Source of the DNA: a virus
DNA: 21,559 bases
Virus record (IMG/VR): IMGVR_UViG_3300042566_000361
Span: 1 to 21,559 of that record
Direction: 5' to 3' (one strand)
Made by a program: the position numbers and the translations under genes
Shown here: positions 9,663 to 19,583 of the stretch, in pieces
How positions within the stretch are numbered: the first letter of the stretch is position 1
How the letters are laid out: every line of letters starts with the position of its first letter
Notes under the pieces: generated by a model
What the model was told of the DNA's origin: nothing
Database searches by the model: none
The model's input: only the letters and a program-made list of their open reading frames with translations

Positions 9663-9925
9663 TAATAAGTTTTATGAGGATTAAATGCCATTTCTTTTCC
9701 TGTTAGATTTTCAAATAATTTATCCAATTCATAAATTAATGAATTACGTTGTACGTTTAAATCACAGGCTTTTTTTAAAATAGAATAAAGCTCTTCGTTT
9801 CCATTATATTTTAAATTAAATTCTTTAAAAGTCATTCGCCTTATTTCATAAAGAGCTTCTTGATTATTCCACATCTTTAAATCAACTGTAATAAGTTTGT
9901 CTATTAAACTACCTGGTGTTTCCAT
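9662..9925 (-). CDS. Small helical protein linked to glycosyltransferases
   Basis: 87 aa. It begins METPGSLIDKLITVDLKMW, a phrase that recalls the SLIDKLSIVNLKIW segment of DUF4254 proteins found in Bacteroidetes polysaccharide loci; this is a resemblance, not a firm assignment. The remainder is helical (ILKKACDLNVQRNSLIYELDKLF). Its start shares a base with the stop of the glycosyltransferase-like gene before it, so it probably belongs to the same functional block. Confidence 0.6.
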   Translation of the reverse strand: METPGSLIDKLITVDLKMWNNQEALYEIRRMTFKEFNLKYNGNEELYSILKKACDLNVQRNSLIYELDKLFENLTGKEMAFNPHKTY

Positions 9926-10599
9926 TATATTGTTTTTAATCCATCGTTTTTAAAATATGATTCTAAATAGCTATTTCTTACAGATGTATGTACTGTTACG
10001 TTTGAGTTTAAAGATGGCATTGATTGAAGTAAACAAACAAATGCTGAACTAATTACATGGCATTCTTTTGCTCTTTCCATTATTGTTAAGGATTCAAATA
10101 AAGGTACTTCTTTTGGTATTCTTACAATTGGTAAGTTAGGTAAATTATTTATTTCATACCCTCTTTGCAAATCATCATGAACAAAAATATATTCTGCATG
10201 ACTTAAAGCATAATTATTAAAATGTTCAAGTTCTTTTTTTAAATCCCTTTTAACCTGAAATTCTTTTCTTAACTTTTTATCATATTTTTTATTCTCAAAA
10301 AAAGCATCGTCTCCTATTTGATTGTAAAGTTCATAACCTTGCTGATCTAAATGAAAGTCCTCTTTGTCTCCTACAAAATTATCTATTGCAGTTCCTATTT
10401 CATTTTCATTATCAATTATTAAAAGTTCTATTTTATTTAAACCTTCATACATTCTTTTTACATTTTCCGCATTATGTCTATAACATAAAATAAAAATAGA
10501 ATCGTATTTTCTTACATCACGTTTATAAATATGTCTTATTAATCCACAATGTACTATGTGATCTCCCATTCCTAAATGATGTGATATTAATTTATTCAT
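9925..10599 (-). CDS. GT-B glycosyltransferase-like protein (heptosyltransferase type)
   Basis: 224 aa. The N-terminus has the loop HLGMGDHIVHCGLIRHIYK (residues 7-25), typical of the nucleotide-sugar or acceptor loop of family-9-like and related GT-B transferases, where LGxGDhI precedes a helix. A second Rossmann-like half ends with AKECHVISSAFVCLLQSM, the place where GT-B proteins bind the donor. It is shorter than a full GT-B enzyme (usually over 300 aa), as phage versions often are. Start overlaps the previous gene by 8 bases. Target and sugar are unknown. Confidence 0.6.
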   Translation of the reverse strand: MNKLISHHLGMGDHIVHCGLIRHIYKRDVRKYDSIFILCYRHNAENVKRMYEGLNKIELLIIDNENEIGTAIDNFVGDKEDFHLDQQGYELYNQIGDDAFFENKKYDKKLRKEFQVKRDLKKELEHFNNYALSHAEYIFVHDDLQRGYEINNLPNLPIVRIPKEVPLFESLTIMERAKECHVISSAFVCLLQSMPSLNSNVTVHTSVRNSYLESYFKNDGLKTI

Positions 10600-11410
10600 T
10601 TGCCCAAAAAAATATATGTTTATAATCTGATTCTAGTTCTTTATATTCATCTTTATATGCGTCATAACCATTTAAAAATTTAACTGTTGGTGCTTCATAC
10701 CAACCAGCAGCTCCAATATGTCCGCAAGTATCGTTTGTTTGTCTGTAAACCTCATTTACATTTTCCAATGGTTCATCAATATAAGTATTTCTGTAACCAC
10801 TTAAAAAAGTATTTGGCATTCCTAATATGTAATGCTGAATAATAGATTCAGTTCCATGAGCAGCGTAAATAGGGTATAATTTAGCGTTTAATGTATCCTG
10901 GTCTGTTCCTTTTACAGAATAATCTCTATTATCTAAAATATTATCTAAATTTTCAAATCTATCTCTAAAATGTTTTGTTAATCCTATCATGCCACCCATC
11001 AAAGGTATGTTATGAGAAACTGAATCTGTAATTGCATGAACTACTTTTGGTGAGTTTTCCCATTCTTTTACCATTTGAGCCTCACGATATGTTAATGGAC
11101 TATCTGTATCTCTGCAAATAATTCTTTCAACATTATATTCAAAAATAGGTAATAATCGCCATAACATAGCCTTACATAATGGTTCAGTTGGTAATACTTT
11201 AAATACTACATTGTACTGTTTCCACCTATTAAATAAACTTTCAAAATGCTCAAAAGTTTTTTCATCAACACAAATGTGTATTCGCCAGTCAGGATAAATG
11301 CAACGAGCGAGACGAATATTAATCCACATCCCACGAAGATAGGAGCTAAAATCAAAGCAATTATGTTCTCTTTTACCATAACCAAAAAGTGAGTAACTAA
11401 TATATTTCAT
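10592..11410 (-). CDS. GT-A-like glycosyltransferase with DTD motif
   Basis: 272 aa. A DxD-type metal motif, CRDTDSPL, is present with Asp101 and Asp103, preceded by hydrophobic strand VERIICR as in GT-A folds. Further on, GGMIGLTKHFRDRF and GTDQDTLN (an acidic pair before a helix) match the acceptor-side region of small transferases. The start ATG overlaps the preceding stop (ATGA at 11407-11410). It probably moves a sugar from a nucleotide-sugar to a glycan or protein; the acceptor is not visible from sequence. Confidence 0.65.
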   Translation of the reverse strand: MKYISYSLFGYGKREHNCFDFSSYLRGMWINIRLARCIYPDWRIHICVDEKTFEHFESLFNRWKQYNVVFKVLPTEPLCKAMLWRLLPIFEYNVERIICRDTDSPLTYREAQMVKEWENSPKVVHAITDSVSHNIPLMGGMIGLTKHFRDRFENLDNILDNRDYSVKGTDQDTLNAKLYPIYAAHGTESIIQHYILGMPNTFLSGYRNTYIDEPLENVNEVYRQTNDTCGHIGAAGWYEAPTVKFLNGYDAYKDEYKELESDYKHIFFWANE

Positions 11411-11973
11411 TTGTTTGAAACGTATTTATAATAGTAAATTATTTCTTCAATGTAAACTTCTTTTTTTAAAAGTCCACTTTTATTTATTTGAGTAGCCCAG
11501 TCGGTATCTTCACCAAAGTTGATTTCAGGAAATGTAAATTGTTTTGCAATGTTACTTTTAATTACATTTAAGTGATTAGGGTAACGTTCGTAAGTTATAA
11601 CATTTGCAGTTGTTCTGTATTCAGAATATTTAATTGAATGTTCAAATATCTTTGGCTCATGCCCATCAAAAGTAATTACACCTCTTAAAGATAAACAATC
11701 AGGCTTACTTTTTAATGCTTTTAATACTAAACGTAAATATTCATCTGATATTTTATCATCATCATCTATAAAACAAATGTATTCACCACTTGCTTTCTGC
11801 AATAATTCATTTCTCTTTTGCCCGATGCTTTTTCCTTTTGGCGCTTCATCAATTAATACTTCAACTATTCCAAAAGCATTCTGCATTTCTAATTGAAAAT
11901 TAATATCAAAGAATAGTTTATTAAACTTTTCAATTCTTTCAGGTAGTGTTGGTATTAAAATAGAAAGTATCAA
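11407..11973 (-). CDS. Family 2 glycosyltransferase
   Basis: 188 aa. SILIPTLPERIEKF at the N-terminus is the first strand and loop of GT2. GQKRNELLQKASGEYICFIDDDD (residues 51-73) contains the helix before and the Asp-rich metal site (Asp70-73). NFGEDTDWA (Glu155, Asp156) is the ED motif carrying the catalytic base. All core elements are present in a compact enzyme. ATG overlaps the upstream stop (ATGA). Cytoplasmic, inverting transfer expected for the family; no membrane segment. Confidence 0.85.
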   Translation of the reverse strand: MILSILIPTLPERIEKFNKLFFDINFQLEMQNAFGIVEVLIDEAPKGKSIGQKRNELLQKASGEYICFIDDDDKISDEYLRLVLKALKSKPDCLSLRGVITFDGHEPKIFEHSIKYSEYRTTANVITYERYPNHLNVIKSNIAKQFTFPEINFGEDTDWATQINKSGLLKKEVYIEEIIYYYKYVSNK

Positions 11974-12653
11974 AGTTTGTTTAATATTAAATGTTCGGGT
12001 AAATTAAATAGGTTTGCTTTTCTTTTTAAGTAAGTTTCGTAGTCTTTTTTATTTACATTCTGCGCTTCTGTTTTTTGGTACTGTGCATCAAATTCAGATA
12101 AACCCCATGCAGGATGCCTGTGAGTAAATAATACTTTTTGATCTCCTTTGTATTCGTATTTAGATAACATTTTAGCTACTTCAGTAGCTTCCATGTCGCA
12201 CCATAAAGAAACATAGTCAGGATGATAAATATAGCCAAAACGATTATAATAATTAACTCCCATTATACTCATTGTCATTAAATTTCCTTTTTGATAGCCA
12301 TCTGAATAATGAATAACTTGGTCGAAGTTTCCTTTAAAATCTTGCCTAATTATATTGTCAAATCCTTTAATTTCAAATACCATGTCATCTGAAGTATTGA
12401 TTAAAATGTCCCAACCTTCAAAAATATCCATGTCTCGATTGATGGCATCTATTTTATTTTTGGATGTACCTCTAACTATGAATACATTGTCATCAGGATA
12501 ACTAAAACCAAACATACTTTCATCATCTTCATCAATGCTAACTAAGATTGTGTAATTCATTGAATTACAAAGCATTATGATATTCTCAATTGCTTTTTTT
12601 GCCTTTTGTGGTCTGCTGCGAGTTGCTAGTTTAAAAAGTATGTGTTCGTTCAC
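11970..12653 (-). CDS. GT-A glycosyltransferase-like protein
   Basis: 227 aa. It opens KLATRSRPQKAKKAIENI, the first strand and helix common to phage GT2-like proteins, then VSIDEDDESM and a probable metal motif NTSDDM (residues 87-91). The C-terminal half has a Trp/His-rich stretch FTHRHPAWGLSEFDAQY that may form the active-site lid. Starts in an ATGA overlap with the previous gene. It belongs to the same fold class as its neighbours but is only distantly similar in sequence, so the group is not a recent duplication. Confidence 0.65.
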   Translation of the reverse strand: MNEHILFKLATRSRPQKAKKAIENIIMLCNSMNYTILVSIDEDDESMFGFSYPDDNVFIVRGTSKNKIDAINRDMDIFEGWDILINTSDDMVFEIKGFDNIIRQDFKGNFDQVIHYSDGYQKGNLMTMSIMGVNYYNRFGYIYHPDYVSLWCDMEATEVAKMLSKYEYKGDQKVLFTHRHPAWGLSEFDAQYQKTEAQNVNKKDYETYLKRKANLFNLPEHLILNKL

Positions 12654-13306
12654 TCTACAAATTTATAAAAAATAGTTTCGCTTTGTAATTCCTTTATAAA
12701 TACTTTTCGATTTTCTTCTATTAACTTTCCTTTTTTATATTCAGGAATACTTGATTTGTGTTCAATAATATAATCTAAGGCGCAAATGTATTTATCAGTT
12801 TCTTCAAGTTGTTGGTAAGGTGCATCGGTTAATCCTGCTTTATATATTCTGTTTGAATAACCAGCGTGTTCAAATCCATACTGCCCATACTCAGAATTAA
12901 AATAACCTACTTTATTTAATACTTCTTTTGTTAAGTATATAAATACACCACCACAATCTCGATATATCTCTAAATCGTTTATTTTAGCTTTTAAATTATG
13001 ACTAGGTTCTAAGTATAGTAAGTGATTATATCCTGAATTAATAAAATATTCAGCCCAATTATTTTCAAATGGATAACAGTCATCATCAAATAAGAAAATA
13101 AAGTCGCAGTCCCTTAAAGTATATAAGTTTTGATTCTTTGAGTATGCAACACCTTTGTAGTTTACATCTTCGTGAATGTGTAAATGATAGTTTTTAGGTT
13201 TATGTTTCTCAAAGTAATTTAGCCACCTATCTACATACTCTTTTCGATTTGGAGTAGTTGTTACGCCAATACCGATTGTAAAATCTGTTTTCTTATTTGA
13301 GTCCAT
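12650..13306 (-). CDS. Family 2-like glycosyltransferase
   Basis: 218 aa. IGIGVTTTPNRKEYVDRWL at residues 11-29 is the nucleotide-binding strand-helix. FIFLFDDDCYP holds the metal site (Asp74-76). YGQYGFEHAGYSNR, about 70 residues later, replaces the ED motif with an EH pair seen in some GT2 branches. The ATG at 13306 is 46 bases inside the preceding gene, a longer overlap than elsewhere in the block; the residues after it fit the fold from the start, so the long overlap looks real. Confidence 0.72.
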   Translation of the reverse strand: MDSNKKTDFTIGIGVTTTPNRKEYVDRWLNYFEKHKPKNYHLHIHEDVNYKGVAYSKNQNLYTLRDCDFIFLFDDDCYPFENNWAEYFINSGYNHLLYLEPSHNLKAKINDLEIYRDCGGVFIYLTKEVLNKVGYFNSEYGQYGFEHAGYSNRIYKAGLTDAPYQQLEETDKYICALDYIIEHKSSIPEYKKGKLIEENRKVFIKELQSETIFYKFVE

Positions 13307-14301
13307 TTGTTTATGTTATAATTTGATTGAACGTATATTTTTAAACTTTCTGCATATTCTTTACGCATAGATTCATCTTTACTTATATTTCTTATAGCCT
13401 TGTACCAGCCATTTATATCACTATTATTTAAAAATATTGCAGTTTCTTTTGGGAATATGTTATAAGGTAGTACATCACTAACTATTGCAGGATTGCTATG
13501 TAAACCAGCTTCAAGTAACTTAATTTCGCTTTTGCATTCGGTAAATGAGTTAGATTGCAATGGGATTAAGCTAACATCAGTTTCATTATAAGCCTTTCCA
13601 TAATCGTGTACCGGTAAACTGTAAACTCTTTGATATTTATCGGTTAAAGTGCCACCACTCATTACCTTTTCATAATAGTTATAGTCTGAATTATCATTGT
13701 AACCACCTAAAACAAATTGAGCGTTTATATCATGCCTTAATATTTTACGAATAGGCATTTCTAAGATTGAAATATCTTCTTTATGGAAAATACCTGCAAT
13801 GTAGCCAAATCTTATTTTCTCGCTTTTAGTTTTGTTTGATTTCCATTGCTCATCTTCGTGATCCAAACAGTTAGGAATTACCTCAACATTCTTATTGTAC
13901 TTTTTAATCTTAGATGCTAAATGCTTAGTTGTGGTTATTACTAAGTCTACATTTTTAAGTATTTCAACTGTCTGACCTGGTATGTTATGTATTTCATATA
14001 ATCTACTTAAATAATGGCTTTTAGGCAATGTCCAAATATCGTCAATGTCAAATATCACTTTAATACCTAATGAATGATATTTTTTAATTATTTCAAGTGA
14101 TTTTCCGTTTGTATAAATTTCTCTTTGATAAACTACTGCAGAATACTGTTTTAACTGTTCATCTGTCGCTGCATCTAAGTCAGGAAATACATCACATTGA
14201 AAGTCTACCATGTCGGAGACTTTTGAGAATGGAACTATTAATCGGTGAAAGGATAACCCATTAAGGTTATTCATATTCGCCTTTATCAGAATTTTTTTCA
14301 T
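13261..14301 (-). CDS. GT-B glycosyltransferase, family 4-like
   Basis: 346 aa, full-length GT-B. The N-terminal domain has NGLSFHRLIVPF and VIFDIDDIWTLP (an acidic segment typical of phage and capsule family-4 enzymes). The linker VEVIPNCLD leads into the second domain, which has IRFGYIAGIFHKED and the donor-site motif ECKSEIKLLEAGLHSNPAIVSD with the Glu of the EX7E type (family hallmark of retaining transferases). First gene of the six-gene block. Its start overlaps the sigma-like gene by 35 bases. Substrate unknown. Confidence 0.8.
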   Translation of the reverse strand: MKKILIKANMNNLNGLSFHRLIVPFSKVSDMVDFQCDVFPDLDAATDEQLKQYSAVVYQREIYTNGKSLEIIKKYHSLGIKVIFDIDDIWTLPKSHYLSRLYEIHNIPGQTVEILKNVDLVITTTKHLASKIKKYNKNVEVIPNCLDHEDEQWKSNKTKSEKIRFGYIAGIFHKEDISILEMPIRKILRHDINAQFVLGGYNDNSDYNYYEKVMSGGTLTDKYQRVYSLPVHDYGKAYNETDVSLIPLQSNSFTECKSEIKLLEAGLHSNPAIVSDVLPYNIFPKETAIFLNNSDINGWYKAIRNISKDESMRKEYAESLKIYVQSNYNINKWTQIRKQILQSVLA

Positions 14302-15157: not shown

Positions 15158-16002
15158 TTTAAAGATTTTAAATTATCAAATGTTTTATTTTGTTTCTTTA
15201 GTTTTAAAGTTAAGAAGATTAAAGCCTGTGTTTTAACATAATTATCAAATGTTTTGTTTTGATTATCTATTACTGAAGTAATTATGTTTTGATAACCTTT
15301 TGCATCAGCATCTTTTAATCCTGACTTTTTAATATAATTATTGTATTTAATCTTAGCTTTTTTCTTAATTATTTCTTTGCTTTCATCTGTAAATGATATT
15401 TGATAATTAGCATATAGGAACTCATATATAGAAGGTAAGTGCATTACATTATCTTCATGGTTAATTATTGTATGGAATCGTTCGGAATTTTTTTCTTCAC
15501 ATACTTTAAAAAAGTAATTAGCTATCTGTAAATTTTGCTCAAAGAATTTAGTCATTGGCTTTTCAGTTGTAGGTTCTTGATATTTAAACCATTCCTTCAT
15601 TGCTTGTTCTCTTTTAATAGAACTCATATAGCCTTTAATGAATTTTGTAAACGTTACAGTACCATAACCAACATATTCGCCAAATTCATTGCTTATTCCT
15701 AATTTAAAAGCGTTTCTTAGTTCAGATATAGTTATACCCTTATAGTGTTCTAAACAGTAGTCATAAATGAATTTAGCAACGTTTTTTAATTGGTCATTCT
15801 CTAAGATATACTTTTTGTTTTCACCGCTTAACTCTATTGTTTTTGCTATTTCAGTATAAATTAGTCTTAATGCTTCTCCACGTTCAATATTAACTAACTT
15901 TTGTTCATTCTTAGCTTCAACATAAAATTTCTGTGAAGGCTGTAATTTATTTAAGGCTATTAACTCTAAGTTATTGAAGCCAGTTGTTGTAATGTTACTC
16001 AT
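15154..16002 (-). CDS. Replication-region protein of unknown function, 282 aa
   Basis: 282 aa, helical, soluble. The middle has ISELRNAFKLGISNEFGEYVGYGTVTFTKFIKGY, a recognisable recurring phrase in Bacteroidetes phage proteins beside replication genes, but I cannot attach a proven function. It follows the replisome-organizer-like gene in an ATGA overlap, so a helicase-loading or replication-accessory role is an inference. The C-terminus carries two copies of QNKTFDN about 22 residues apart, matched by a near-identical DNA repeat at about 15176 and 15243. Confidence 0.6.
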   Translation of the reverse strand: MSNITTTGFNNLELIALNKLQPSQKFYVEAKNEQKLVNIERGEALRLIYTEIAKTIELSGENKKYILENDQLKNVAKFIYDYCLEHYKGITISELRNAFKLGISNEFGEYVGYGTVTFTKFIKGYMSSIKREQAMKEWFKYQEPTTEKPMTKFFEQNLQIANYFFKVCEEKNSERFHTIINHEDNVMHLPSIYEFLYANYQISFTDESKEIIKKKAKIKYNNYIKKSGLKDADAKGYQNIITSVIDNQNKTFDNYVKTQALIFLTLKLKKQNKTFDNLKSLK

Positions 16003-16688
16003 AGATTTTCCCAGTCTGTGTTATTAATTTCATTTTGTATTATTTGCATTCGAGTGTTAAATGTATTATTATCTTTTACAAAATCAACCTTAGCTTTTTT
16101 AAATGCATCTTTAACCCACATATTAATTGCAGCATAATCTGACTTGTATTTCTTTCCTGTACTTGCTTTATAGTCATTTAACTTATTTAGCATCCATTCT
16201 ATTTCATGTTGTGCAAACTCTTCATTTAATTTATTAAGTTCAGATTCAGAAAGAAAAACAAATTCTTTTATTTTATTCTTATTCTTATTCTTATTTATTT
16301 CTTCTTCTTTTTCTTCTTTGCTTAAAATCGCTTTACTATCGTTAAGCGGTCGCTTAGCATTCGCTTTATTTCGTTTAGCTTCCGCACCTTTTTTGCCATT
16401 CTCTGAATTAACTTTTGATATATGATTAGCTTCAATTAATTGTTCATCTAAAAATTTAATTAATATATTTCCTTGCTCATTCCAAATATATCTATCAATT
16501 AATTCATTAATTAATGATTCATTTTTATATCTTCTAATTAAATCTTCAATTGTTAATTTGCCGTCTCTTTGCCAATATAAAGCACATACATTAATAAATA
16601 ATCCTTGAAGTTCTAATGATTCATAAACTATATCTCCAGTTAACCATTCAGTAGCAGTAAATTTAAAATATGGAAAATTTTTTGCCAT
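15999..16688 (-). CDS. Replisome organizer / DnaD-like replication initiation protein
   Basis: 229 aa. The N-terminal 80 residues (KFTATEWLTGDIVYESLELQGLFINVCALYWQRDGKLTIEDL) match the winged-helix domain of phage replisome organizers, which bind origin DNA. A Lys/Glu/Asn-rich linker of low complexity (about 105-140) follows, and the C-terminus ends YKSDYAAINMWVKDAFKKA, similar to the helicase-loader-contact end of replication proteins. It likely recruits the host or phage helicase. Translation starts at ATG 16688, only 12 bases after the U-run of the structured leader, so its expression may depend on how that leader folds. Confidence 0.7.
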   Translation of the reverse strand: MAKNFPYFKFTATEWLTGDIVYESLELQGLFINVCALYWQRDGKLTIEDLIRRYKNESLINELIDRYIWNEQGNILIKFLDEQLIEANHISKVNSENGKKGAEAKRNKANAKRPLNDSKAILSKEEKEEEINKNKNKNKIKEFVFLSESELNKLNEEFAQHEIEWMLNKLNDYKASTGKKYKSDYAAINMWVKDAFKKAKVDFVKDNNTFNTRMQIIQNEINNTDWENL

Positions 16689-16694
16689 TTATAC

Positions 16695-16748
16695 AAAATA
16701 AAAATCCCTTCGGCTTTCGAGGTCGTGGTCTCTACTCACCAAAGGGAT
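16695..16748 (-). terminator. Terminator-like stem of the replication-gene leader
   Basis: A ten-pair stem (16739-16748 with 16704-16713) directly followed by TTTTTATTTT. The 25-base loop is much longer than in a standard intrinsic terminator, and the start codon lies 12 bases further on, so it fits conditional termination better than a plain operon end. Confidence 0.5.
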
Positions 16749-16778
16749 AAATAAAAAATTATTGATGCCACGACTCAT
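16700..16778 (-). ncRNA. Pseudoknotted leader RNA before the replication gene
   Basis: Reading the minus strand from the predicted start near 16778: GTCGTGG (16774-16768), a U-rich linker, ATCCCTTTGG (16748-16739), a 25-base loop holding CCACGAC (16728-16722), then CCGAAGGGAT (16713-16704) and a U-run. The two ten-base arms pair fully with one G-U. The loop heptamer pairs perfectly with the upstream heptamer, giving a pseudoknot. A three-pair GAG/CTC helix can close the inner loop, or the upstream arm can lengthen by two pairs across a bulged C. The RNA lies between IbrB and the replication gene. It could be an attenuator, a riboswitch-like sensor or a small RNA; I know of no named family that it matches. 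Confidence 0.6.
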
Positions 16779-16783
16779 CTTTA

Positions 16784-16814
16784 CAAAGATATAAAATTTT
16801 ATTTAATTAATCAA
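16784..16814 (-). promoter_or_regulatory. Promoter of the leader RNA and replication genes
   Basis: TATCTTTG (16791-16784) fully matches the Bacteroidetes -7 element TAnnTTTG. A partial -33 element, TTG (16814-16812), lies 20 bases upstream within the last codons of IbrB. Transcription should begin about 7 bases downstream, just before the 5' strand of the pseudoknot. Confidence 0.6.
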
Positions 16815-17463
16815 TTATTTCATTATTTTCATTATATATTTCTGCTTCCCATGCTTGACTAAAATCTTTATCAGAAAATAATTCAGATATACCACCTATT
16901 TGACATAATCTTAAAACCTCATCAGCATCCATTCCTAAATTTTTAGCAATTTTTTCATCACTCCAATTTCTTTTTTTAAGATCTAAAACCATATCACTCA
17001 TAGCTTGTATTTTATGTTTTCCTCTTGCTCTGTTATGTCTAACAGTTGAAGCCATTCTATCATTTAAATCTTTTCTATCTTCATTAATAGTAACAACTGG
17101 CAAATATCCATGTACTCTTTTTTGTATATCTTCACATTCTTTTCCAACTCTATTTCTATGAAACCCATCAATAACTTCTCTTGTTTTGCCATTAGATTCA
17201 AGCATAGATACAATTGGTTGCGTATATCCATCTGCAGAAATTGACAATCTTAATAATTCCATTTCAGGTGGTGCAACTGAATTTGGATTATAATCATTTG
17301 CGTGAACTTCATCATTTTTTACCCATAAAACACAATCAACTGGTTCTGTTTTAAATGGACTAATTTGATGTAAAGCAATTTTAATTTCATTAATAGCATT
17401 TACTTTTTCATTTAATTGTAAAGAATCTAATTCTTTAATCAATTCTAAAATTTGTGTTTTCAT
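16807..17463 (-). CDS. ibrB: IbrB-like ParB/sulfiredoxin-fold protein
   Basis: 218 aa. HANDYNPNSVAPPEMELLRLSI (54-75) and DGYTQPIV open the ParB/Srx fold. EVIDGFHRNRVGK (96-108) is the nucleotide-binding DGxHR box of ParB-like proteins. STVRHNRARGKHKI (139-152) and a helix-turn-helix at about 168-190 (WSDEKIAKNLGMDADEVLRL) complete the typical phage IbrB pattern. IbrB was described with IbrA as a regulator pair for immunoglobulin-binding proteins in E. coli; its biochemical activity is not settled, and ParB-fold relatives include nucleases and CTPases. It is the last gene of the cassette, started in an ATGA overlap with the GNAT-like gene. Confidence 0.85.
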   Translation of the reverse strand: MKTQILELIKELDSLQLNEKVNAINEIKIALHQISPFKTEPVDCVLWVKNDEVHANDYNPNSVAPPEMELLRLSISADGYTQPIVSMLESNGKTREVIDGFHRNRVGKECEDIQKRVHGYLPVVTINEDRKDLNDRMASTVRHNRARGKHKIQAMSDMVLDLKKRNWSDEKIAKNLGMDADEVLRLCQIGGISELFSDKDFSQAWEAEIYNENNEIID

Positions 17464-17840
17464 AATTCAATAAAATAATAATTGTTTGTTTTTTTTGTTA
17501 ATTTAAATTTGTTTTTAAGAAATGTATTAATAGATTTTTTTGTTGCAACTGCTTTTATTTTAAAATTACAATCAATTAATCTTTCATTAAATAAAATATT
17601 ATATCCACCCATATTTCTGTATTCAGGCAAAATATAATCATGATTGAACGATATATAATTTTTTTTAATTACTGATGCGCAAAAACCAATTAATTTATTT
17701 TGATAAAATAAAAAATACCAAGTATGATTTTCATCTGAATATATTGGATAACCTAATTCTTTAAATACATTTTTATTAAATGCTATCTTAGATAATAGAT
17801 TTAACGCATAATCTGAATGTTTTTCTTTTATTACTATCAT
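17460..17840 (-). CDS. Small GNAT-like acetyltransferase
   Basis: 126 aa, a little short for the family (about 140-160). YFLFYQNKLIGFCASVI is the beta-2/beta-4 core, HDYILPEYRNMGGYNILFNERL (67-88) is motif A with Arg75, Gly78 and Gly79 in place of RxxGxG, and FLKNKFKLTKKTNNYYFIEL resembles the terminal strands. It would transfer an acetyl group from CoA to a small molecule or protein; the altered glycine pattern leaves activity uncertain. It sits between IbrA and IbrB with ATGA overlaps on both sides, so it must be made together with them. Confidence 0.65.
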   Translation of the reverse strand: MIVIKEKHSDYALNLLSKIAFNKNVFKELGYPIYSDENHTWYFLFYQNKLIGFCASVIKKNYISFNHDYILPEYRNMGGYNILFNERLIDCNFKIKAVATKKSINTFLKNKFKLTKKTNNYYFIEL

Positions 17841-19051
17841 AATTTAAATTTTTGTTCTTCTCTTTGTTGTTTTTTTAATTTTAAATATTTTTCATATGCT
17901 TCAGTTTTATGTTGCGTAAAACTCAAACCTTTACACCACCAATCATTTCTTAATAAACTTTTACATATTCTTTTCCAGCTTGGAACTAATTTTTTACTTT
18001 CTAAAATAGATGGAGCATAATCAGGTATTTCATTTTCGTATCCTCTTAATTTCCACCATTTAATAAAAGTAAATATTTTATTTTTATAATGTTCTGCAGT
18101 TTTTTCAGGTAATGTATTTAATATTAATTCAGAAAATGATTTCCATGTATGATTTTCAGGTTTTGTTATTTTACCATACCCATTAATATTTCCAGTATCT
18201 TGAACGTATAATGCGCCACTATTAGCACCATTAACTCTTGCAACTACTTTTGACCATGTTTCAGGTTCTATTAAATGAAATAACCATAAACCTTTTCTTT
18301 GATCATCTCCGTAAGGTTGACAAATTCTTTGCAAATGAATTGATAAACCTGCTTTATGCATTAAGTCGTAAAGTTCATTATGTCTTTTATTTTTATTTTT
18401 TCCATGATAAATCCATATATCTTCAGTAGACCAATCATATATTGGATAAACATTAAAAACATTATCAGTCACTTTAGTTGTATATTGCTTATTTAAATAA
18501 GTTACTTTTTTATTACTTGCAATTGTTCTAAACCTATTTAAACTTTCATCTGCTCTAATACCAACTAAACACGCAGTATTTTTACCATTAGAATACCATT
18601 CTCCAAATTCAGGCACAAACTCTTCAAACTCCATACCTGTTCTAAAAAAAGGAAAATAATTAATATCACTTACACTAAATGTAGGTTGTTCACGAATCCA
18701 ATCATTTTTTTTATTTTCATCCCAGCATAACCAAAATGGCTCGAATACAGAAACAGCATTTCTTAAATGAATAGGTAAACATACCCAGTATAAATCAATA
18801 TAATTACGATACATTTTAACGCATTCTAACATGTGATTTATTGTTAATTTATATTGTCCTTCTAAATCAACTATTAATAAACCTATTTCTTTATTTCTTT
18901 TAATAGCTTCATCCATTACCATGTGAAGCATAACTGTACTATCTTTACCACCTGAAAAAGATAAATATATTTTATCAAAATTATCAAATGTCCATTCAAT
19001 TCTTTGTTTAGCTGCTTCATAAACATTTAAATCTAATTTTATTTTAGGCAT
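17837..19051 (-). CDS. ibrA: IbrA-like PP-loop protein (DUF3440, PAPS reductase-like)
   Basis: 404 aa. The PP-loop SGGKDST (33-39) binds ATP pyrophosphate. VDLEGQY (61-67), the GIRADES motif (164-170) and YPIYDWSTEDIW (202-213) are the remaining conserved blocks of the PAPS-reductase/DndC-like superfamily. The C-terminal part with PSWKRICKSLLRNDWWCKGLSF (357-378) is specific to DUF3440. All ATP-site residues look intact, so adenylating chemistry is possible. Known members, such as E. coli IbrA, act with IbrB, but the true substrate is unknown; a sulfur- or nucleic-acid-related modification is an inference from DndC similarity. The start overlaps the 121-aa gene by 8 bases. The gene is very AT-rich even for this window. 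Confidence 0.88.
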   Translation of the reverse strand: MPKIKLDLNVYEAAKQRIEWTFDNFDKIYLSFSGGKDSTVMLHMVMDEAIKRNKEIGLLIVDLEGQYKLTINHMLECVKMYRNYIDLYWVCLPIHLRNAVSVFEPFWLCWDENKKNDWIREQPTFSVSDINYFPFFRTGMEFEEFVPEFGEWYSNGKNTACLVGIRADESLNRFRTIASNKKVTYLNKQYTTKVTDNVFNVYPIYDWSTEDIWIYHGKNKNKRHNELYDLMHKAGLSIHLQRICQPYGDDQRKGLWLFHLIEPETWSKVVARVNGANSGALYVQDTGNINGYGKITKPENHTWKSFSELILNTLPEKTAEHYKNKIFTFIKWWKLRGYENEIPDYAPSILESKKLVPSWKRICKSLLRNDWWCKGLSFTQHKTEAYEKYLKLKKQQREEQKFKL

Positions 19052-19409
19052 ATTTTACCTCCCATTCTTTAATTAATTTATCTGCTATCATATCTGCTTT
19101 ATCTCTATTTTCTTTGCTTACTAAATGCCATGCATCCATTGTAATTGTAGATGGTATATTAGCATAAATACAACATGCTGCTTGACCTAAATAAGCAATT
19201 TTGTTCATTGAATCATTACTTAAATTTTGTTCACATGAATATATCCATTCATCAATAACTTTTTTCATATATTTTTCTGTTAATTCTTGATTACTAAATA
19301 ATTCAATAACTTTTAATTTTAAATAATCTTTGTTTTTACCTGATAGATTATCATAAAATCCATTAGGGTAATCTTCCCATTTCAAATAATGGTGATAAAT
19401 TCTTTTCAT
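19044..19409 (-). CDS. Unknown protein of the IbrA/IbrB cassette, 121 aa
   Basis: 121 aa. It starts MKRIYHHYLKWEDYPNGFY, an unusual His/Tyr/Trp-rich opening. A helical body follows, with a small Cys pair (QAACCIYANIP) and a C-terminal helix ADMIADKLIKEWE. No known family, membrane segment or catalytic motif is recognised. It is the first gene after the structured RNA at 19424-19548 and overlaps IbrA by 8 bases, so it is probably a cassette partner. The ATG at 19409 is 14 bases after the U-run of that RNA. Confidence 0.7.
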   Translation of the reverse strand: MKRIYHHYLKWEDYPNGFYDNLSGKNKDYLKLKVIELFSNQELTEKYMKKVIDEWIYSCEQNLSNDSMNKIAYLGQAACCIYANIPSTITMDAWHLVSKENRDKADMIADKLIKEWEVKYA

Positions 19410-19423
19410 AATTTAATTAAATT

Positions 19424-19497
19424 AAAAAACCCCTAACGATTCGGTTTTGATTACTAATCAAGTAAGGGCTTAACTCCTTACACCGAACCATTAGAGG
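19424..19497 (-). terminator. Strong terminator-like stem of the cassette RNA
   Basis: Fifteen continuous pairs (19483-19497 with 19430-19444) end directly in six Us (19429-19424). The stem is longer than most intrinsic terminators and its loop contains two hairpins. Placed 14 bases before the 121-aa start codon, it would block cassette expression unless read through or remodelled. Confidence 0.65.
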
Positions 19498-19548
19498 TCT
19501 AATGTTTTTTCTGTTAAGCTATTTTAGAAATCGGTTAGTTACTCCGAT
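19424..19548 (-). ncRNA. Compact pseudoknotted three-way-junction RNA
   Basis: Read 5' to 3' on the minus strand: hairpin P1 ATCGG/CCGAT (19548-19544 with 19534-19530); free strand GCTTAAC (19519-19513); P2, 15 uninterrupted pairs with G-U (19497-19483 with 19444-19430); inside P2 two adjoining hairpins, P3 GTAAGG/CCTTAC (19481-19476 with 19467-19462) and P4, a 15-base palindrome (19461-19447); then TTTTTT. Seven of the eight P3 loop bases (GTTAAGC, 19474-19468) are the exact complement of the free strand, so a pseudoknot is expected. Predicted length is about 125 nt. It may be a self-terminating small RNA or a regulated leader for the IbrA cassette. I cannot match it to a known family. Confidence 0.7.
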
Positions 19549-19552
19549 AGTG

Positions 19553-19583
19553 CAAATATACAAAAATTATTTAACTTTCCAAA
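19553..19583 (-). promoter_or_regulatory. Promoter of the cassette RNA
   Basis: TTTG (19583-19580), exactly 19 bases, then TATATTTG (19560-19553): a complete match to the Bacteroidetes -33/-7 promoter consensus. Predicted start of transcription is near 19548-19546, right at the first hairpin of the RNA. The -33 element lies in the last codons of the 94-aa gene. Confidence 0.75.

Follow-up and report, generated by a model that had tools for sequence, protein, structure and literature searches.

In the leaders of the plasmid replication genes repZ and repA (IncI-alpha, IncB and IncL/M groups), an upstream hairpin makes a loop–loop (pseudoknot) contact with a hairpin before the replication-initiator gene, and this contact, which is controlled by antisense RNA, activates translation. 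RNA I and RNA II of ColE1 pair through complementary hairpin loops of seven nucleotides, in that case between two molecules. The lysine riboswitch (L box) unites a bulged-G/loop E motif, a kissing-loop contact and a terminator, and the put RNA of HK022 suppresses termination through the zinc-binding domain of the RNA polymerase beta' subunit. Antisense RNA control of plasmid rep leaders is documented (PMC10724649). The put RNA measures about 70 nt and forms two stem-loops; putL is found immediately downstream of its promoter (PMC9378689). In T4, gene 32 is controlled via a 5' pseudoknot and an unstructured A+U-rich region that follows it (PMC3014915), and RNA structure damps the expression of homing endonucleases in T4-like phages (I-TevI, mobE and segB; mobE/segF terminators) (PMC2988022).

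Here we analyse a candidate leader RNA in a 21,559-nt stretch of viral DNA (positions 1 to 21,559 of IMG/VR record IMGVR_UViG_3300042566_000361; hereafter, the window). Like the plasmid leaders, it has loop–loop pairing between an upstream hairpin and a hairpin before a replication gene; however, the start codon is not buried in the second hairpin (the AUG, at 16688, lies 15 nt past its stem and 11 nt past the first UUUU), U-tails are mostly present and homing endonucleases are served as well. Nor was a counterpart of the plasmid antisense RNA found: an opposite-strand TAnnTTTG box downstream occurs in only 2 of 60 members and is not conserved. The loops have the same seven nucleotides as those of ColE1, but the kissing is intramolecular. 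The lysine riboswitch has the same combination of motif, kissing contact and terminator, but it is built on a far larger multi-helix junction with a ligand pocket and an alternative antiterminator, none of which is found here, and there is no Rfam match. In common with put, two stem-loops directly follow an early phage promoter and presumably act in cis; the differences are the kissing loops, the terminator-like tail and the AUG directly downstream. T4-type leaders share the principle of RNA structure damping homing endonucleases in phages, but their hairpins bury the ribosome-binding site, or a terminator lies inside the gene, whereas here kissing hairpins precede the AUG and are found on replication genes too.

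Architecture of the leader

The components first noted from the sequence (a promoter, GTCGTGG, a ten-pair stem, CCACGAC and a U-rich tail) are all present on the minus strand between 16700 and 16814 (Table 1). The initial annotation described the leader as pseudoknotted, and GTCGTGG and CCACGAC do pair exactly; GTCGTGG, however, forms the loop of a small hairpin of its own (16779–16764). Because both paired strands are hairpin loops, the predicted fold is an intramolecular kissing-loop complex and not a simple pseudoknot. CCACGAC does lie in the loop of the long stem, but the interior is not the open one that had been supposed: a conserved internal loop (UGAGUA/GAAAG) and a GAG/CUC helix occupy it. 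From 5' to 3', hairpin 2 runs AUCCCUUUGG-UGAGUA-GAG-ACCACGAC-CUC-GAAAG-CCGAAGGGAU, then UUUUAUUUU. Judged by its sequence consensus, the internal loop reads as a bulged-G motif (sarcin–ricin type, AGUA/GAA). The loop of hairpin 2 is too long for a standard terminator scan, which therefore misses it. The promoter fits the TTG / TAnnTTTG type of Bacteroidetes and overlaps the 3' end of the ParB-like gene, and we infer that hairpin 1 lies at, or at most a few nucleotides from, the 5' end of the transcript.

Table 1 Predicted features of the leader region and of a second leader in the window
Feature	Position	Strand	Description	Evidence
Leader locus	16695–16814	minus	Between ParB-like gene (16807–17463) and replisome-organizer-like gene (15999–16688)	
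Promoter	16784–16814	minus	TTG (16814–16812), 20-nt spacer, TATCTTTG (16791–16784)	Sequence
Hairpin 1	16764–16779	minus	GAUG-AGUCGUGG-CAUC, four bases after TATCTTTG	Sequence; helix covaries
Kissing arm 1	16768–16774	minus	GUCGUGG, in loop of hairpin 1	7 covarying pairs
Linker between hairpins	16749–16763	minus	15 nt, A/U-rich	Spacing nearly constant across members
Hairpin 2	16704–16748	minus	Terminator-like; outer stem 16748–16739 / 16713–16704, ten pairs, one of them U-G	
Internal-loop module	16714–16738	minus	UGAGUA (16738–16733) / GAAAG (16718–16714), closed by GAG/CUC	
Kissing arm 2	16722–16728	minus	CCACGAC, apical loop of hairpin 2	Partner arm and covariation
U-rich tail	16695–16703	minus	UUUUAUUUU, directly after hairpin 2 stem	
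Candidate leader ORF	16689–16778	minus	29 codons, spans whole element; TAA directly before rep ATG	
Downstream gene	15999–16688	minus	Replisome-organizer-like protein	phrog_13246 (replisome organizer), 1.1e-16; phrog_29280, 2.9e-25
Second, larger leader	19410–19570	minus	Same architecture, before gene at 19044–19409	

A strict search for the architecture (stem of at least 8 pairs, U-tail and a 7-nt kissing partner) found a single place in the window and none in 200 dinucleotide-preserving shuffles. Minimum-free-energy folding of the plus strand, opposite to the element, gave no signal (z = -1.4 only); the case for this candidate element is a comparative one and does not depend on folding energy.

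Elsewhere in the window, a DUF3440/PAPS-reductase-like protein (17837–19051, minus strand) sits beside the ParB-like protein (16807–17463, minus strand), a pair resembling the genes that some phage records call IbrA/IbrB. About five genes like glycosyltransferases or sugar-modifying enzymes form a run at 9925–14301 (minus strand), in the middle of the phage genome.

Covariation across related phages

Upstream of rep relatives that were found by protein lies the same leader with other arms (GUAACGG/CCGUUAC, GUUGCAG/CUGCAAC and GUUGCGG/CCGCAAC), which are still complementary. Searching IMG/VR with the core pattern TGAGTAGAG-N6-11-CTCGAAAG gave 91 matches, 88 of which have an exact kissing partner of at least 7 bases 31–49 nt upstream, in an upstream hairpin. 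The check that had been suggested, covariation across related phages, thus came out in favour of the pairing: the arms vary (23 distinct arm sequences among the matches) and stay complementary. The three exceptions are a locus with a five-base exact match (L179), one truncated by the locus end (L191), the full record of which was matched by the covariance model over its whole length, and a false match (L201).

Among 31 non-redundant members (alignment A1), 99.5% of cells in the kissing helix are paired and double-sided compensatory changes occur at all 7 of its pairs; changes on both sides are also seen at ten of ten pairs of the outer stem and at three of the four pairs of the hairpin 1 helix (88.4% of cells paired). 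Over the whole structure, 192 cells are changed on both sides, compared with 51.5 ± 6.1 in shuffles, and the signal is lost when the partner is shifted by one to three columns. The search pattern dictated the GAG/CUC helix and the internal loop, which therefore do not vary among its matches; in the divergent members L059, L061 and L064, found with the covariance model and read by eye, the inner helix becomes AAG/CUU or AGGA/UCCU and AGUA/GAA and the kissing are kept. All 31 distinct loop pairs have arms that match in cis, compared with only 24 of 930 cross combinations. Judged as a structured cis-regulatory leader RNA in general, the element has covarying helices and lies consistently between promoter and start codon. 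A promoter-proximal, terminator-like leader with intramolecular pairing, as initially annotated, is conserved in related phages.

These data dispose of the weakest explanation, that hairpin 2, which could end transcripts from upstream, is a chance hairpin or the ordinary terminator of the ParB-like operon with no leader function: this is barely credible given the kissing covariation with 23 different arms, the failure of all 200 shuffles to reproduce the architecture and the presence of a promoter upstream of hairpin 2.

Occurrence in phages and hosts

Searching the window against Rfam 15 gave no match, the only hit near the element being a chance one (E = 2.1), and 22 loci with related leaders matched nothing but tRNAs. 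A search of the open literature, other than the 2017 survey of 224 candidate RNAs itself, found no description of this RNA. Across 84,980 bacterial and archaeal genomes (257 Gb), the same pattern gave 28 matches, of which one, on a contig of a Psychroflexus metagenome-assembled genome, is real; with the covariance model and strict filters, 1 of 120 genomes of that genome's family matched, namely the starting genome itself. Because of these two results, we consider the element mainly phage-borne and reject an origin as a host gene.

Nucleotide BLAST for cultured carriers returned coding or short matches only. The covariance model, with inspection by eye, points to members or relatives in three cultured phages: Flavobacterium phage FCL-2 (37502–37595; arms AUCCAC/GUGGAU, before a 238-aa ORF), Flavobacterium phage hattifnatt9-1 (13305–13400; GUCGUCG/CGACGAC, before an HNH gene) and Polaribacter phage P12002L (34375–34469; the model matched one strand and the arms GUCGUAG/CUACGAC lie on the opposite strand). 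Matches in phages phi14:2 and phiST were rejected as plain terminators.

Downstream genes and other leader types

One main group of downstream genes belongs to replication: replisome organizers, DUF6291-like and related initiators, and Prim-Pol and BT4734/PriCT primases, some of them reached via a gene of ~77 aa that is first in the rep operon. The other comprises free-standing homing endonucleases (NUMOD4/HNH_3, and NUMOD3 with GIY-YIG or putative HNH). A KilA-N gene and, by eye, a putative DNA methylase are further targets. Autoregulation by one protein family was rejected, the downstream proteins being unrelated. Nor is orthogonality of arms within one genome a rule, as two HNH leaders in phage G025 share GUGGACG.

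A scan that made no use of specific sequence, run on the whole or a large part of eleven phage records, found 18 leaders, compared with 0–1 in each of five shuffled sets; 17 of the 18 sit directly before an ORF. Nearly all inspected rep-gene relatives have a leader on the promoter–kissing–terminator plan, with RNA sequences of several unrelated types; relatives with a leader of another sequence type than that of the window include L006/L032/L036, L022, L024, L026, L027, L028, L029, L031, L033, L034, L035, L037 and L041. What they share is a promoter, a hairpin or strand, a terminator-like hairpin and a loop pairing of 7–10 bp; the leaders of L021, L026, L041 and L006/L032/L036 were read by eye, with a pairing of 5–6 bp in the last group. 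L038 and L042 have the loop pairing with less perfect promoters, and the survey left out L018–L020, L025, L039 and L040, which matched over part of the Rep protein only. The Rep protein of L006 is 91% identical to that of the window, yet its RNA is of a different type.

In that type (L006, about 2897–2995; L032, about 2902–2996; L036, about 2898–2997), AGUUAA...UUAACU surrounds hairpin 1, a conserved single strand AACUUAUUA comes next, and kissing pairs are such as UUCGGG/CCCGAA; it is not in Rfam. The upstream regions of L028, L024, L034 and L070 hold further types, with loop pairings of 9–10 bp (AGGUUGUAGC, GCGUGAGAAA, GCUUCUCAC and GGUCGAAUC).

The initial annotation had counted the leader studied here as the second of its kind, and the window does hold another on the same plan (19410–19570). 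It has the promoter TATATTTG, a 5' hairpin AUCGG-AGUAACUAA-CCGAU and a long terminator stem that encloses two hairpins; its loop pairings, GCUUAAC/GUUAAGC and ACUAA/UUAGU, both covary in several of four relatives (alignment of L012, L018, L023 and L046).

Proposed mechanism and alternatives

Comparison across members establishes the kissing pairing, the promoter spacing, the internal loop with its usual U-tail, and the position between promoter and start codon as features of the predicted RNA. In many relatives, the spacing between a TAnnTTTR box and the hairpin 1 that follows it hardly varies (within 1 nt in 42 of 64), hairpin 1 and the internal loop lie a nearly constant distance apart (mostly 25–28 nt), and the 8 nt directly after the stem include at least 5 U in 54 of 64 distinct members. 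Fixed promoter spacing, constant hairpin spacing and the U-tail are, as far as sequence can tell, typical of a structure that forms as transcription begins and finishes in a terminator.

Promoters differ at eight loci (L127, L128, L152, L167, L179, L181, L184 and L185), which are mostly without a TAnnTTTG box. In its place, an AT-rich box (TATTTATA or TATAATAA, for instance) immediately precedes hairpin 1 and may be a late promoter specific to phages.

We find no support for the initial suggestion that alternative folding of the leader acts as a switch. The kissing contact and the terminator stem are mutually compatible, and the longest competing antiterminator helix averages 5.59 bp compared with 5.55 bp in shuffles, none going beyond chance. 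The leader thus has the terminator-like stem and U-tail of classical attenuators (riboswitches, T boxes) and lacks their competing helix, so the classic two-fold switch does not apply.

Given this, we propose a phage-borne, structured 5' leader RNA that acts as a transcription attenuator with a putative terminator nucleated by the kissing contact, a reading to which we give an even chance of being right. The transcript would start at or near hairpin 1, which would fold first as RNA polymerase leaves the promoter and would dock onto the apical loop of hairpin 2 as it emerges. Docking would cap and nucleate the long-looped terminator stem, most transcripts would stop before the AUG, and the gene product would be kept at a low level. 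If anything were to prevent docking, such as a protein bound to the leader, an RNA acting in trans or, for the clade of the window, a ribosome on the leader ORF, the polymerase would read through. Such leaders look like built-in brakes on replication and homing-endonuclease genes. As hairpin 2 alone is already stable (mean -16.9 kcal/mol), the kissing may not be needed for termination.

A possible, though rather unlikely, alternative is an element of translation or mRNA stability, in which a 5' kissing fold protects the mRNA, or is the site of a protein (ribosomal, SSB-like or other RNA-binding) that controls initiation, and the U-tail is an unstructured initiation region. The fixed spacing of hairpin 1 from the promoter and an AUG usually within 20 nt of the stem would suit this, and T4 gene 32, with its 5' pseudoknot and the unstructured region that follows, is a precedent (PMC3014915). 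By the count used, the U-tail is weak or absent in about 10 of 64 members, and several HNH-gene members truly have none (GGUUACUUACUAUUAUG; UUACUUACUAUUAUG) and keep the rest of the element and the close AUG; termination may therefore not be the common function. Against a role in translation or stability, the distance from stem to AUG varies widely (about 2 to 45 nt), the tail of 8 nt is U-rich and not merely A/U-rich (77% U, 16% A), and the downstream proteins are unrelated, so that no single autoregulator could account for all of them.

We regard as improbable an attenuator controlled by the ribosome in the clade of the window, where hairpin 1 would bury the AUG of the 29-codon ORF, which could encode a leader peptide; an initiating ribosome would unfold both hairpins, allow read-through, stop at the TAA and restart at the rep AUG. 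The frame of this ORF has a stop in none of 16 distinct linkers of the clade, compared with 11 and all 16 of them for the two remaining frames; 15 of the 16 linkers agree in length modulo 3, and the TAA abuts the ATG before several different rep proteins. These open linkers are not independent, however, because the clade is closely related; the residues encoded in the kissing arms are not conserved; and among 65 distinct members, 37 have no spanning ORF and 24 no leader ATG, with the RNA structure kept. Outside this clade, the ORF is missing from most members.

Very unlikely is an early-operon antitermination RNA like put, the two hairpins of which would bind the elongating polymerase so that terminators are ignored. 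As a pair of stem-loops, about 85 nt in all, close to the promoter of phage operons, the leader does resemble put, but hairpin 2 has a U-tail of its own immediately ahead of the gene, the same leader also precedes single homing-endonuclease genes and not only replication operons, and the part of the put description consulted does not include a kissing contact (PMC9378689).

A further reading, which we consider quite improbable, is that the arms are specificity alleles of control in trans: leaders stopped early would accumulate as small RNAs and pair with those leaders, carried by other copies of the phage or by co-infecting phages, that have the same allele. Pairing of this kind would set the dosage of replication genes or exclude relatives, in the way that plasmid antisense loops set incompatibility. 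The window and L003 carry different alleles (GUCGUGG and GUUGCAG, respectively) despite Rep and ParB-like proteins that are 98% identical.

Implications for Bacteroidetes phages

None of the known systems compared here combines 5' kissing hairpins, a terminator tail and an immediate AUG, and defining features of plasmid leaders and two-fold attenuators that were looked for are missing. We consider the element a new family of RNA, with its own variation on leader attenuation. Gene regulation in Bacteroidetes phages is little known. Across a whole group of these phages, leaders of this design apparently precede the replication operon and free-standing homing endonucleases, and their repeated rebuilding from unrelated sequences suggests that dose-sensitive genes are commonly rationed in this manner, which seems not to have been described. 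Should the kissing contact determine the strength of the terminator, this would be a principle of attenuation that works without an alternative fold.
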